From: Thermoleophilia bacterium
GTDB lineage: Bacteria > Actinomycetota > Thermoleophilia > Gaiellales > Gaiellaceae
Length of the DNA stretch: 64,000 nucleotides
Assembly (NCBI GenBank): GCA_025928515.1
Contig: JAICJI010000001.1
Span: 36,522-100,521, forward strand
Reading direction: 5' to 3'
Shown here: piece by piece, positions 1,471 through 9,046 of the stretch
Layout: each line of letters begins with the position of its first letter
How positions within the stretch are numbered: the first letter of the stretch is position 1
Made by a program: the position numbers and the translations under genes
Notes under the pieces: model-generated
Told to the model about the DNA's origin: nothing
What the model saw: the letters and a program-made list of their open reading frames with translations, nothing else
Database searches by the model: none

Positions 1471-1932
1471 TCAGTGGTGTCCGCCGGGATCGCGGCCGTT
1501 GTCGTCGCCGATGTCATGGCTAGGGGCGGCGCCGGTCACCGCGCCGGCGGACTTCGGGGCGGCAGTCGCGGCGCGGCACGTCTCCCCGGAGCGGGTCGCC
1601 GTCGCGGTGATGCGGGCGTGCGGCCGTGACGCGATCAGGCGGCGCAGGTCGAACGAGCCGCTCGGAGCGTGCGTCCTGACGGTGAGGGATGCCACGAGGA
1701 CGCCGTTGCGGCGTAGCGTGACGTGCCATGGAACTCCGTTCCGGTTCTCGTCGACCTGGAACTCGACCTCGATGCCGCGGTCCTCGCGGCTCAGGTCGAG
1801 TTTGCTCGTCGACTGCTGCGTGCAGGCACCGCGGACGATGCGATGGCTGGTTCCCTTCGCGGACGCGGCCTGAACCGCTACGAGCGAAATCGCGAAAAAG
1901 GCGAGTGTGAGTGGGATGAGCAAGCGGCGCAT
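1471..1932 (-). CDS. Secreted small protein, paralog of the 3999-4397 product (signal peptide + GACT..IEVEF..W core)
   Basis: MRRLLIPLTLAFFAISLVAVQAASA signal peptide; GAAAGGA ribosome-binding site upstream of ATG 1932. Confidence 0.75.
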   Translation of the reverse strand: MRRLLIPLTLAFFAISLVAVQAASAKGTSHRIVRGACTQQSTSKLDLSREDRGIEVEFQVDENRNGVPWHVTLRRNGVLVASLTVRTHAPSGSFDLRRLIASRPHARITATATRSGETCRAATAAPKSAGAVTGAAPSHDIGDDNGRDPGGHH

Positions 1933-1995
1933 ATTGGTGATCCTTTCGTCGATCATCGGAGTAAGGCCAGCCTCGCGATCGGCCGGTCCGAGCCG

Positions 1996-2008
1996 CAATG
2001 AGACATTG
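1996..2008 (-). promoter_or_regulatory. Palindromic element CAATG-N3-CATTG, copy 1 (candidate response-regulator operator)
   Basis: Perfect 5-bp inverted repeat with 3-nt spacer; extended 24-nt match (21/24) to copy 2 at 3945-3968. Confidence 0.55.
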
Positions 2009-2038
2009 GTCGGAGTCGCCGGGCCGACCGCCCGCTCG

Positions 2039-3313
2039 GTGATCGTCCGCTTCGCCACCGGCACGCTCATGGCGATCGTCGTTGCCGTGGTCGGCGGCTA
2101 CTTCGTTCTGCGGTCGGTCGCGATCGACGAGGCGAAGCAGCAGACGCGCGTGCGTGTGAAGGAAGAGGCGAAGCTCGTCGGCGCGACGGTGACCGACGCG
2201 CTCCTGCGGGGAAGCGGGAAGGCGCAAGAGGCCGTCGACAACGCGGTCGTCGGTCGCGTGCTGACCAACTCGATCGTGCGCGTGAAGATCTGGTCGTCTG
2301 CGGGCCGCGTCCTCTACTCCGACGAGCACGCCGAGATCGGCGGCCACTATGCGCTGGACCGCGGACAGCTGCACTTGTTGCGGCACGGCGGCGCGGAGGT
2401 CGAGGTGTCCGATCTCAGTCGGCCCGAAAACCGGCTCGACCGCCAGCAAGGCCGGCTGCTCGAGGCGTACACGAGGATCCGCACGCCCTCCGGCACGCCG
2501 CTGTTGTTCGAGATCTACCAGCGCTTCGGTTCGGTCACGGACCAGGCGCGCAGTCTGCTCGGGAAGCTCGCGCCGCCGATTCTCGGCGCGATCGGCCTCA
2601 TCCTGCTCGTCCAGGTGCCGCTCTTCTGGTCGCTCATGCGCCGGCTGCAACTGGGCTACGAGCAGCGGGAGGGCCTGCTCGCGAATGCCGTCACGTCGTC
2701 ACGGCGGGAGCGTCGACGGGTTGCGGCGTACCTCCACGACGGGCCCGTTCAGGACCTGGCGGGCTTGGCGTTCTCGCTGGCTCCGGTGGCCGACGACGCG
2801 GAAACACGCGGAGCGGACCGCGAGGCTGCGGTCGTCCGGACGGTGATCGACCGCCTGCGCGGGACCGTTCGTGACCTGCGCGCGCTGCTCGTCGACCTCC
2901 ACCCGCCGACGCTTGCGACCGCGGGTCTCGAGGCGGCGCTCGGCGATCTCGTCAGCCCGTTCCCCGCCCGCGGCACGAAGGTCGAGCTGCGCGTCGACGG
3001 CGGCGACCTCCTCGGCCTCGACACGCAGGCGCTCGTCTACCGCGTCGCCCAGGAGGCCGTCCGCAACGTGCTCGCCTACGCCGAGGCGAGCAACGTCTCG
3101 GTCGAGGTCGGAGTCGCGGATTCCACCGCGCACCTGCTCGTCGCCGACGACGGGCGTGGCTTCGGGCCCGAGACGCGGGAGCGCCGTCGCGCAGAGGGAC
3201 ATCTCGGCCTGTCGCTCGTCGAAGAGCTTGCCCAGCAGGCGGGCGGGAGCCTCACCATCGACTCGCGCGAAGGCGCCGGGACTCGCGTGCGCCTGGAGGT
3301 GCCGATCCGATGA
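2039..3313 (+). CDS. Sensor histidine kinase (HisKA_3/NarX-type), membrane-bound
   Basis: Two TM segments, RRRVAAYLHDGPVQDLAGLAFSL HisKA_3 H-box, DDGRGFGPETRERRRAEGHLGLSLV ATPase G-box. Start uncertain (GTG 2039 or ATG 2090 region). Confidence 0.85.
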   Translation: MIVRFATGTLMAIVVAVVGGYFVLRSVAIDEAKQQTRVRVKEEAKLVGATVTDALLRGSGKAQEAVDNAVVGRVLTNSIVRVKIWSSAGRVLYSDEHAEIGGHYALDRGQLHLLRHGGAEVEVSDLSRPENRLDRQQGRLLEAYTRIRTPSGTPLLFEIYQRFGSVTDQARSLLGKLAPPILGAIGLILLVQVPLFWSLMRRLQLGYEQREGLLANAVTSSRRERRRVAAYLHDGPVQDLAGLAFSLAPVADDAETRGADREAAVVRTVIDRLRGTVRDLRALLVDLHPPTLATAGLEAALGDLVSPFPARGTKVELRVDGGDLLGLDTQALVYRVAQEAVRNVLAYAEASNVSVEVGVADSTAHLLVADDGRGFGPETRERRRAEGHLGLSLVEELAQQAGGSLTIDSREGAGTRVRLEVPIR

Positions 3314-3945
3314 TCCGCGTCCTCATCGCCGACGATCACGGCATCGTGCGCGACGGCCTCGCCGGCGTCATCGCAGCCCAGACGGATCTCGAGGTGGTCG
3401 GCTCGGTCGAGAACGGCGCGGAAGCCGTCGAGTCGTGCCGCAGCCTCGCCCCCGACGTCGTGCTGATGGATCTCGAGATGCCGGTGCTCGACGGGATCGA
3501 GGCCACTCGCGTCATCCGGGAGGAGCACCCGGAGACCGCGGTGCTCGTCCTCACGTCGTTCTCGGACGCGCGCCGCATCACGGCGGCGCTCGGCGTAGGC
3601 GCGGCCGGTTATCTGCTCAAGGACGCGTCCGCGGATGACGTGATCCGTGGCCTCCGGGCCGCCGCGGAGGGCGGAGCGCCGCTCGATCCAAAGGCTGCAC
3701 GTCTCCTGCTCGAGGCACGGGATGCCCCGGACCCGCTCGAGGGGATCTCACCGCGGGAACGCGAGGTGTTCGCGCTGCTGCTCGACGGGCTCCCGAACAA
3801 GCTGATCGCCCACCGCCTCGGCATCAGCGAGAAGACGGTGAAGACGCACCTGACGAACATCTTCCGCGAGATCGGCGTGGCCGACCGGCTGCAGGCCGTG
3901 CTCTGGGCCGAGCGCCAGGGGCTCCGTTCCGACCTCTCCAGCTGA
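3310..3945 (+). CDS. NarL/FixJ-type response regulator
   Basis: MIRVLIADDHGIVRDGL receiver; ISPREREVFALLLDGLPNKLIAHRLGISEKTVKTHLTNIFREIGV LuxR HTH; ATGA overlap with the kinase. Confidence 0.93.
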   Translation: MIRVLIADDHGIVRDGLAGVIAAQTDLEVVGSVENGAEAVESCRSLAPDVVLMDLEMPVLDGIEATRVIREEHPETAVLVLTSFSDARRITAALGVGAAGYLLKDASADDVIRGLRAAAEGGAPLDPKAARLLLEARDAPDPLEGISPREREVFALLLDGLPNKLIAHRLGISEKTVKTHLTNIFREIGVADRLQAVLWAERQGLRSDLSS

Positions 3946-3952
3946 CTCGGAC

Positions 3953-3965
3953 CAATGTCCCATTG
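3953..3965 (+). promoter_or_regulatory. Palindromic element CAATG-N3-CATTG, copy 2 (candidate response-regulator operator)
   Basis: CCAATGTCCCATTGC; 21/24 identity in the extended window with copy 1; about 33 nt upstream of the GTG start at 3999. Confidence 0.55.
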
Positions 3966-3998
3966 CGCGGCCATGAGGCGGCCCGCACACTGGGAAGC

Positions 3999-4397
3999 GT
4001 GAAGCGTCTCCTGCTCCTGGTGCTCGTCCTGCTCGGCCTGTCGGCCGGAGCCGCACAGGCGCGCGGCAACGACGGCGGCGGAGGCGACGGCGGAGAGATC
4101 CGCGTCGCCGGCGCCTGCGGGCGTGGCGTGACATCGTCACTCCGCCTTCGCGGGCGCGACGGTGCGATCGAGGTGCGCTTCGGGTTGCGGCAGACGCGCG
4201 GGCACGGCGTCTGGCGGATCGCGATCGTCCACGAGGACCGCATCTCCGCACGCGCTACGCGGAGGACGACGCGCAGCGACGACTCGGTCGAGCTGCGGCG
4301 GAATCTGACCGATCTCCGTGGCAGCGACACCGTCGTGATCCACGCCTGGGGACCGCGCGGCCTCGGTTGCCGCGCGAGCGCGACGCTCTCTCCGTGA
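3999..4397 (+). CDS. Secreted small protein, paralog of the 1471-1932 product
   Basis: VKRLLLLVLVLLGLSAGAAQA signal peptide; shared GAC...L.L...D..IEV.F...R.G.W and ...LRR.....CRASA pattern. Confidence 0.7.
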   Translation: MKRLLLLVLVLLGLSAGAAQARGNDGGGGDGGEIRVAGACGRGVTSSLRLRGRDGAIEVRFGLRQTRGHGVWRIAIVHEDRISARATRRTTRSDDSVELRRNLTDLRGSDTVVIHAWGPRGLGCRASATLSP

Positions 4398-4407
4398 GAG
4401 CCGTGGA

Positions 4408-5436
4408 GTGATCGCCGAAGCCGTTGCGGCGGTGACACTGACCCGCGGGCCGGTGGCCGAAAGCGTGACGCGGCGCAGCGCGATCATCTCCTTCCGCACC
4501 TCGGTGGCGGGCGAAGCATCCGTCCTCTTGCCTGGCAGAGCGCGCGTCCGGGCCGGCTCGGGCGTCGACCACGTCGCCCGGCTGACGGGGTTGACACCGG
4601 GACGGCGCTATGCGTACAGGGTCGAGGGACAGTCGGGAGCGCTCGCCGACGGCCGTTTCCGCGCGGCGCCGGCTCGCGCGTCGAGGTTCACCTTCGCCGT
4701 CGTCGGCGACAGCGGCAGCGGAACGACGAACGAGTCGGACGTCGCCTCGCTCATCGGCTCCTGGCACCCGGACTTCGTGCTCACGGTGGGCGACAACGCC
4801 TACCCGCTCGGCTCGGCGGGGCTGCTGGATCGCGACATCTTCCGCCCTTACGCGGCAGTGCTGCGAGAGTCGGCGTGGTTCCCCGCTCTGGGCAACCACG
4901 ACGTGAAGGCAGAGGGTGGGAAGCCGGAGCTCGAGGCATTCCACTCGCTCGGCAAGGAGCGCTGGTATCGCTTCACATGGGGGAATGCGGCCGTCGTCGT
5001 GCTCGACTCCGACACGTCGGTCGCGCCGGGCTCGCCCCAGTTGCGCTTCGCGCGACGCGCCTTGGCGCGGCGTTCTTGCTTCCGCTTCGCCGCGTGGCAC
5101 CATCCACCGTGGGAGCCGCCAGGCAGGCCGCACAGCCCTGGGCTCCGCCGCAACATCGTCCCGCTCGTGCAGAAGGACGGCGTCAGGGTGGTGTTCGTCG
5201 GTCACCTGCATGCCTACGCCCGCAGCCGGCCGCGCGATGGGGTCGTCTACGTGGCGGTGGGCACCGGAGGAGCCTCGCTCGACAACGACGCCCGCAAGCT
5301 GACGATCCCCTCCGCGCGCATCGTCCAGGGTCATTTCGGTGCGCTGCGAGTGGACGTCGTCCGCCGCAAAGCACACCTCCGGTATGTAACGGTCGACGGT
5401 CGAGTTCGTGATCGTTTCAGCCTGAGCTGCCGCTAG
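4408..5436 (+). CDS. Purple acid phosphatase-like metallophosphoesterase with N-terminal Fn3-like domain
   Basis: VVGDSGSG, VLTVGDNAYP, ALGNHDVKA, AWHHPPWE, FVGHLHAYAR metallophosphoesterase motifs. Confidence 0.85.
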   Translation: MIAEAVAAVTLTRGPVAESVTRRSAIISFRTSVAGEASVLLPGRARVRAGSGVDHVARLTGLTPGRRYAYRVEGQSGALADGRFRAAPARASRFTFAVVGDSGSGTTNESDVASLIGSWHPDFVLTVGDNAYPLGSAGLLDRDIFRPYAAVLRESAWFPALGNHDVKAEGGKPELEAFHSLGKERWYRFTWGNAAVVVLDSDTSVAPGSPQLRFARRALARRSCFRFAAWHHPPWEPPGRPHSPGLRRNIVPLVQKDGVRVVFVGHLHAYARSRPRDGVVYVAVGTGGASLDNDARKLTIPSARIVQGHFGALRVDVVRRKAHLRYVTVDGRVRDRFSLSCR

Positions 5437-6612: not shown

Positions 6613-7547
6613 GCGAGCACGTCGTCGATCGCCTGGAGCGCCGCTTCGTCGAGCTCGACACCCGACGCTGCCGCGTTGTCGCGGAGCTGCTCGGGACGTG
6701 ACGAGCCCACGATCGCGCTCGCGACGTTCGGCTCGCGGAGGATCCACGCCAGGGCGAGCTGCGGCATCGTGGCGCCGAGCTGCTCGGCGATCGGGCGGAG
6801 CCGCTCCACACGCTCGAGCATGTCGTCGCCCAGGTACCGCGACATGAAGCCGTCGCCCCGTGCAGCCGCACGCGTTCCTTCGTCCCACGGCTCGCCGGGC
6901 CGGTACTTCCCGCTCAGGACACCTTGCGCCAGCGGCGAGTAGACGATCTGCGAGACGCCGTTCTCACGCGAAGCGGGGATGACGTCCCCTTCGGCCTCAC
7001 GGTGCAGCAGCGAGTACTCGGGCTGCGAGGAGACGATCTTGGCGTAGCCACGCTCGCGGGCGAGCACGACCGCGTTGCGGATCTGATCGCCGCTCCAGTT
7101 CGAGATACCGATGAACCGCGCCTTGCCCGCGTCCACGACTTCGGTCAGCGCGCCAAGCGTCTCCTCGACCGGAACCTCGTCGTCCCAGGAATGACACTGG
7201 TAGAGGTCGACGTGGTCAAGCTGGAGCCGGCGCAGGGACTCGTCGATCTGCTTCAGCACCTGCTCGCGCGAGAGGCCACGGTCGCCGTTGGGCATCTCCC
7301 CGAAGACCTTCGTCGCCACGACGAACGTGTCGCGGGGACGGCTCGCGAGCGCACGGCCGAGCACCTCCTCCGAGCGCCCCTCGCTGTAGACGTTCGCCGT
7401 GTCGAAGAAGTTGATCCCGTGCTCGAACGCCGCGTCGACGACTGCGAGCGCGGCGTCCTCCTCGAGGCTGCCGCCGAAGGTCGTCCAGGTGCCGAGACAG
7501 ATCTCCGAGACGCGGAGATCGCTGTCGCCGAGCCGGCGATAGTCCAC
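6609..7547 (-). CDS. Aldo/keto reductase
   Basis: MDYRRLGDSDLRVSEICLGTWTTFGG...FFDTANVYSEGRSEEVLGRAL...HSWD; GTG start at 7547. Confidence 0.92.
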   Translation of the reverse strand: MDYRRLGDSDLRVSEICLGTWTTFGGSLEEDAALAVVDAAFEHGINFFDTANVYSEGRSEEVLGRALASRPRDTFVVATKVFGEMPNGDRGLSREQVLKQIDESLRRLQLDHVDLYQCHSWDDEVPVEETLGALTEVVDAGKARFIGISNWSGDQIRNAVVLARERGYAKIVSSQPEYSLLHREAEGDVIPASRENGVSQIVYSPLAQGVLSGKYRPGEPWDEGTRAAARGDGFMSRYLGDDMLERVERLRPIAEQLGATMPQLALAWILREPNVASAIVGSSRPEQLRDNAAASGVELDEAALQAIDDVLA

Positions 7548-9046
7548 TACTGCTCGGTGTCGATCTGGGCGCGTTGCAGGTGCCCGGAGTAGTCGACGTA
7601 GATCGATTTCCACTCGGTGAACACGTCGAGCGCGGCCTGACCGGCCTCGCGGTGGCCGTTGCCCGTGTCCTTCGTGCCGCCGAAGGGGAGGTGAACCTCG
7701 GCGCCGATCGTGCCGGCGTTGACGTACGTGATCCCGGCCTCGAGGTCGCGCATCGCGCGGAACGCCGCGTTGACGTCCCGGGTGAAGATCGAGGACGAGA
7801 GGCCGTACTTGATCCCGTTCGAGACGCGAATCGCCTCGTCGAGGTCGGCCACCGGGATGAGAGCGGTCGTCGGGCCGAAGATCTCCTCCTGCGCGATCCG
7901 CATCTGCGGTTCGACGTCCGCGAAGATCGTCGGCCGGTAGAAGAAGCCCTTGCCGAGGTCGCCGTCGCCGGCGATCTCGCCCCCGGTGAGGAGCTTCGCG
8001 CCCTCGTCCTTGCCGATCTCCGTGTAGGAGTGGATCTTGTCGAGCGCGCTTCGGTTGATCACCGGGCCGATGTCGGTGTCGTCCTCCCAACCCGGGCCGA
8101 GCCTGAGCTTCTCGACCCGCTCGACGAGACGCTTTTGCAGCTCGCCGTAGGCGCCCTTCTGGACGATGACGCGCGACGCGGCGGTGCAGCGCTGGCCCGA
8201 GGTGCCGAACGCCGACCAGAGGATCCCGTCGACGGCGAGCTCGACGTCGGCGTCGTCGAGGACGATGATCGCGTTCTTGCCTCCGAGCTCGAGGTGGACG
8301 TGCGTGAGCGTCTCGGCCGCCGCCTTCAACACCTCGACGCCGGTCTCGCGGGCGCCGGTGAGCGTGATCACGCGGACGTCGGGATGGCGCACCATCCGGT
8401 CGCCGACCGTGCCGCCTCCCCCGTGGACGATGTTGACGACGCCGCTAGGGATGCCCGATTCGGCGAGGAGCTCGACGAAGCGCTCAGCGAGCGCGGGCGT
8501 GTCGGTCGCGGGCTTGAGGACGGCGGTGTTCCCGCAGACGAGCGCCGGGATGAGCTTCCACGACGGGATCGCGACCGGGAAGTTCCAGGGCGTGATCGCA
8601 CCGACGACGCCGATCGGCTGGCGGATGCTCATGTTCCACTTGTCGCGCAGCTCGGACGGCGTCGTGTGGCCGAAGAGGCGCCTGCCTTCGCCGGCCATGT
8701 AGTACGTGATGTCGATCGCCTCCTGGACGTCGCCGCCCGCCTCGGCCTTCACCTTCCCCATCTCGCGCGTCATCAGGTCGGTGAGCTCCGGCTTGGCCTG
8801 CTCGAGCAGGCGGGCGAGCTTGAAGAGGATCTCGCCGCGCTTCGGCGCCGGCACGAGCCGCCAGTCGGCGAACGCCTCCTTCGCGACCGCGACCGCGCGG
8901 TCCACGTCCTCGACACCGGAGCGCGGGAAGATCCCGATCGTCTCGCCGGTCGCGGGGCTAGTGCTCTCGAAGGTCTCGCCGGAAGCGGCATCGACCCACT
9001 CGCCGCCGATGAAGTTCTTGAAGGTCTGCGCTGTTGTCGTGGCCAT
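7547..9046 (-). CDS. Aldehyde dehydrogenase family protein
   Basis: ITPWNFPVAIPSWK, HLELGGKNAIIVLDDAD, FGTSGQRCTAASR; 499 aa. Confidence 0.95.
   Translation of the reverse strand: MATTTAQTFKNFIGGEWVDAASGETFESTSPATGETIGIFPRSGVEDVDRAVAVAKEAFADWRLVPAPKRGEILFKLARLLEQAKPELTDLMTREMGKVKAEAGGDVQEAIDITYYMAGEGRRLFGHTTPSELRDKWNMSIRQPIGVVGAITPWNFPVAIPSWKLIPALVCGNTAVLKPATDTPALAERFVELLAESGIPSGVVNIVHGGGGTVGDRMVRHPDVRVITLTGARETGVEVLKAAAETLTHVHLELGGKNAIIVLDDADVELAVDGILWSAFGTSGQRCTAASRVIVQKGAYGELQKRLVERVEKLRLGPGWEDDTDIGPVINRSALDKIHSYTEIGKDEGAKLLTGGEIAGDGDLGKGFFYRPTIFADVEPQMRIAQEEIFGPTTALIPVADLDEAIRVSNGIKYGLSSSIFTRDVNAAFRAMRDLEAGITYVNAGTIGAEVHLPFGGTKDTGNGHREAGQAALDVFTEWKSIYVDYSGHLQRAQIDTEQ

Follow-up and report, generated by a model that had tools for sequence, protein, structure and literature searches.

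LiaR-type two-component systems are mainly activators. Their kinase, LiaS, has a short extracytoplasmic loop, and the DosR/DevR system has a GAF sensor. The published LiaR motif is T(X)4C(X)4G(X)4A; in Bacillus subtilis the primary LiaR site lies at -76 to -52, and PliaI represents a small regulon at its own locus (PMC7191749). The CesR box is TCAGHCTnnAGDCTGA, and one LiaR likely represses one target, hrcA (PMC4447274). The DosR/DevR box has been given as TTSGGGACTWWAGTCCCSAA (PMC2275270).

A locus comparable to these systems is present in a 64-kb stretch of DNA (the window) from a 2.0-Mb draft genome (66 contigs, 78.7% complete). Two near-identical sites enclose the genes for a histidine kinase and a regulator of the receiver-GerE type. 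Outside the sites are two related secreted-protein genes, sp1 and sp2, directed outward. The locus appears to be a small, largely local two-component circuit in which LiaR-type operators lie within activator-dependent sp1 and sp2 promoters. The probability of this reading is put at about 0.8.

The kinase, the regulator and the secreted proteins

The sensor histidine kinase (2039..3313, plus strand) has a TM segment, an extracytoplasmic Cache/PAS-like domain, a second TM segment, HisKA_3, and HATPase. The sensor domain, ~150 aa and modelled with a pLDDT of 86.7, resembles WalK and CitA in fold. The kinase core is like that of the LiaS/NarX class. However, the Cache-like sensor sets this kinase apart from LiaS with its short loop and from DosR with its GAF sensor. 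The response regulator (3310..3945, plus strand), the proposed binder of both boxes, has a receiver and a LuxR/GerE HTH. Its similarity scores against solved structures are 8e-46 for LiaR/VraR 5hev, 1.6e-39 for VraR, 7.5e-37 for NarL, and 3.2e-34 for DevR. The recognition-helix motif KTVKTH is common to the regulator and the 5hev chain, and KTVK is kept across relatives. Judged by its top PDB match and the residues of its recognition helix, the regulator appears to belong to the subfamily of LiaR, VraR, and CesR, which serve envelope stress in Bacillota.

The operon differs from LiaFSR in having no LiaF gene. LiaF (PF09922) was found neither among the neighbouring genes nor in the 78.7%-complete genome, and the B. 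subtilis control was detected. Both proteins also score under the NCBIfam cut-offs for named systems, the regulator at 156.8 against 300 (MadR) and the kinase at 109.9 against 700 (MctS) and 58.7 against 450 (LiaS). An identity as MctRS or MadRS was rejected, as the window proteins are far under both cut-offs and MadRS has been described in Enterococcus.

The putative targets are unlike those of LiaR systems, being paired secreted Ig-like proteins that flank the kinase and regulator genes. The sp1 gene (1471..1932, minus strand) encodes a secreted protein of 153 aa, predicted to be an Ig-like beta sandwich. Its domain model is of high confidence, eight-stranded and all-beta, and its two cysteines are invariant across the family. 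The secreted protein encoded by sp2 (3999..4397, plus strand) has 132 aa. That the two are paralogs had been claimed before and was borne out by 32% identity (E = 5e-6, tblastn) and by a single profile that recovers both. No convincing Pfam match was found for the 20 family members checked, and an NCBIfam search of the sp proteins gave none above noise. A fold search against the PDB gave none below E = 0.001, only generic sandwiches that indicate no function. The gene at 4408-5436 (plus strand), which begins 10 bp past sp2, encodes a calcineurin-like metallophosphoesterase whose N-terminus weakly matches purple acid phosphatase. In relatives, no such gene was found next to the module, so it may be simply a local neighbour.

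Anatomy of the operator and promoter

The near-identical sites predicted upstream of sp1 and sp2 are both present, and the 18-mer GACCAATGTCYCATTGCG is exact at 1994-2011 (minus strand) and 3950-3967 (plus strand). With up to three mismatches, the 64-kb window holds no further copy (mean of 0.04 in shuffles), and the 2.0-Mb genome has three additional matches, all poor. The CAATG-N3-CATTG palindrome CAATGNNNCATTG occurs twice in the draft genome, at the window sites. The degenerate box TNNGACNNNNGTCNNATTG also finds these two only (reversed-pattern control, 0). The genome-wide scan that the original prediction proposed was thus run by pattern, with the two window sites as the detectable set; because the genome is 78.7% complete, additional targets could be missing. 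A small regulon around the module's own locus is a likeness to B. subtilis PliaI. As a literature search word, GACCAATGTC gave unrelated papers only.

The aligned sites, 51 in all and 49 of them non-redundant, were numbered with position 0 at the G of GAC. The dyad columns of this alignment are T at -3 (40/49), GAC at 0-2, GTC at 7-9, and A at 12 (44/49). These are followed by TTG at 13-15 in 51/51 and, farther downstream, by an A and a T spaced four bases, a -10 element nAnnnT. When spaced triplets were counted without bias across 43 non-redundant upstream regions, GTC-N3-TTG was found in 42, GAC-N10-TTG in 41, and GAC-N4-GTC in 41. Taken together, the counts and the alignment indicate that the real dyad is T-N2-GAC-N4-GTC-N2-A and that TTG is best read as a -35, 17-18 bp upstream of the -10. 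The T at -3, the -10, and the start-codon distance align too, though they are outside the search pattern. The outer pair covaries from T-A to C-G, with C at -3 in seven of the nine sites that have G at 12 (p = 6e-5 over 60 sites in at least three lineages, a value that relatedness inflates). At sp loci outside the class, the change to C-G is on both arms, and TTG is kept at four of five sites. Such covarying arms imply a dimeric binder.

Like LiaR and CesR boxes, the dyad has the T(X)4C(X)4G(X)4A register, which is present at both window sites and at 38 of the 51 aligned sites, although this signature taken alone is loose. A likeness to the DosR/DevR box is the GAC-N4-GTC core with equal spacing, together with a NarL/LuxR-type regulator. 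However, DosR has an outer T-N5-C where the module has T-N4-C, and the regulator scores 121.7 bits against DevR and 159.5/139 against LiaR/VraR. A DosR-type reading of the core was therefore rejected, as the outer T register and the regulator's similarity favour LiaR/VraR.

The sp1 promoter is on the minus strand. Its candidate LiaR-type dyad TCCGACCAATGTCTCA (1999..2014), identified by the alignment, the triplet count, and the published register (PMC7191749), is followed by a putative -35 TTGCGG (1993..1998) that holds the TTG of CATTG. This lies 18 bp before a putative -10 GAGGCT (1969..1974). An extra GGACC half-site (1985..1989) is found between the two; a GAC is present here in 14/14 promoters on the kinase side and 12/31 on the regulator side. 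On the plus strand, sp2 has the dyad TCGGACCAATGTCCCA (3947..3962), likewise a candidate LiaR-type box by alignment and triplet count, and a putative -35 TTGCGC (3963..3968), 17 bp before a putative -10 CACACT (3986..3991). The module's box abuts the -35, unlike the LiaR site of B. subtilis at -76 to -52. The -10 nAnnnT begins at +36 or +37 in all 51 promoters (at most 8 in shuffles, with a mean of 2.6). The element opens with C in 30, G in 20, and A in 1, never with the T of the usual TAnnnT. This suggests weak promoters in need of an activator, and the missing T may possibly result from selection for activator dependence.

In 25/31 of the sp2-type genes, those on the regulator side, the box and the start codon are 47-52 nt apart. 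On the kinase side, the distance is 74-82 nt in 14/14, many with a Shine-Dalgarno-like sequence; sp1 itself starts at ATG 1932, preceded by AAAGGA, which is Shine-Dalgarno-like. With a start codon directly after the -10, sp2-type mRNAs are probably leaderless, while sp1-type mRNAs would keep a leader. Transcription of sp2 probably begins at GTG 3999. Copy 2 had been placed at an activator position, -46 to -34 from this start; the arithmetic is correct, including CACACT at 3986-3991, and the promoter geometry supports the position. Among relatives, copy 1 and the kinase start are ~28 to 115 bp apart. Because this spacing varies, control of the kinase gene by copy 1 is a weak idea, and an operator role there is doubtful.

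Conservation and linkage to the kinase-regulator pair

In a class-wide set of 399 genomes, GACCAATGTCNCATTGC with one mismatch allowed gave 26 sites in 18 genomes (reversed control, none). Several of these are paired, ~2 kb apart, and flank the same kinase-regulator pair. A scan for the box plus the -10 gave 40 sites in 30 of the 399 genomes (reversed control, 0). The sp protein family, present in 48 of the 399, was used as a query since it avoids picking loci by motif. Conservation upstream of orthologs, the test on which the original prediction was staked, was found in the fetched loci at 45 of 48 sp genes that adjoin a kinase-regulator pair, in a single fixed orientation. Among sp genes with no such pair in the fetched stretch, 6 of 17 have the box (Fisher p = 4e-6, a guide only because close relatives are among the counts). 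In most modules, the site is directly behind the regulator's stop codon. Some of the six unlinked genes are on broken contigs or have a module elsewhere in the genome. Three linked sp genes (L018, L020, and L199) had no box at the sensitivity of the linkage scan. These and the unlinked boxes (the six of 17, and those of L130 and L249 below) count against a local regulator.

The box and -10 are also upstream of other secreted or exported proteins, which in L121, L247, and L248 are encoded beside relatives of the kinase-regulator pair. They precede secreted genes in L130 and L249 as well, where no relative of the pair was found within the stretch. The operator-promoter unit thus appears to serve a wider range of secreted cargo. 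The unrelated secreted proteins behind it in these five loci and L241 include a lipoprotein and small proteins rich in His and Asp. L128 (G174:C69; 5066 and 7424-7918) has a module of a second kind, in a genome that also has an sp-type module. Its boxes flank a kinase-regulator pair, one preceding a further response-regulator-like gene and the other a large, apparently exported protein. Two tandem sp genes, each with its own box, lie behind the regulator in L186, L188, L197, L283, and L284.

Outside the class, sp genes with variant boxes and a -10 at +36/+37 were found in L283, L284, and L287. A Chloroflexi MAG (L020) has an sp gene near a kinase-regulator pair, with a one-mismatch box and a -10 at +37. 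No box was found at the remote kinase relatives L017, L022, and L024. By sequence, related modules are spread through the class and extend to other classes of Actinomycetota, perhaps also to Chloroflexota.

A regulatory model and its alternatives

We infer the following circuit. The membrane kinase, through its extracytoplasmic Cache-like sensor, would respond to a signal and phosphorylate the LiaR/VraR-like regulator. A dimer of the regulator would bind T-N2-GAC-N4-GTC-N2-A, whose centre lies ~44 bp before the predicted start of transcription and which adjoins the -35 TTG. The bound regulator would then bring housekeeping RNA polymerase to promoters whose -10 is weak. The two secreted Ig-like proteins would be turned on together, sp2 through a leaderless mRNA and sp1 through one that carries a ribosome-binding site, and these promoters would be the only detectable regulon in the genome.

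In the original prediction, the operator was the CAATG-N3-CATTG palindrome in its perfect form, with centres near 3959 and 2002. Both copies in the window fit it without a mismatch, and the draft genome has no others. However, the palindrome is perfect in only 6/51 aligned sites, and its inner part, AAT-N5-ATT, is in 5/43 unbiased upstream regions against 41/43 for GAC-N4-GTC. Position 6 is T in just 17/49, and the covarying pair lies in the GAC-N4-GTC dyad instead. Thus, a conserved site was correctly predicted and CATTG is present, but the dyad centre is 4.5 bp farther upstream and CATTG is mostly the promoter's -35 and not an operator half. With the dyad in LiaR register and a LiaR/VraR-like regulator, CATTG is read as the dyad end plus the -35 TTG. 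The earlier anatomy was wrong by half a site, and the palindrome is the least probable of the readings. The site belongs to a rigid promoter in which the -10 is conserved as well. The claim that the site is the operator of the local LuxR/NarL-type regulator stands as a candidate, by linkage, register, and similarity, without the exact palindrome.

Repression by the regulator over the -35, relieved by a kinase signal, is unlikely. LiaR-type systems mainly activate, a dyad centre near -44 suits activation, and the -10s without a first T suggest a need for an activator. The abutting of box and -35 is compatible with repression by position alone, and LiaR likely represses hrcA (PMC4447274). Some box-bearing genes are distant from any kinase-regulator pair found, which could point to another NarL-type regulator, encoded elsewhere, as the main binder. 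This is quite improbable given the contrast between linked (45/48) and unlinked (6/17) genes and the site behind the regulator's stop codon in most modules. A specialised sigma factor, with the dyad no regulator site at all, would account for the nearly fixed GAC-to--10 spacing in every promoter and for the unusual -10. However, the covarying arms imply a dimeric binder, nAnnnT with TTG at 17-18 bp fits housekeeping sigma, and linkage to the LiaR-like regulator gene is strong. A sigma factor is thus hardly credible. Activation by the local regulator remains the preferred reading.

A broader reading can be offered tentatively: a widespread, undescribed Actinomycetota signalling island that reaches Chloroflexota, with a Cache kinase and a LiaR-like regulator mainly producing a secreted Ig-like pair. 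If true, it would have matched leaderless and leadered promoters, and the secreted pair would perhaps act on the envelope or feed back on the sensor. For a family of regulators in a poorly studied bacterial group, the locus provides a concrete model of operator and promoter, with box, -35, -10, and start codon at near-fixed distances, and it would carry the DNA code of LiaR-type regulators over from Bacillota into Actinomycetota. It also marks out a conserved secreted Ig-like family, for which the mode of regulation predicts a role in the envelope or outside the cell. With its two sites, the regulon would be a clean test case for leaderless and leadered output under one operator.
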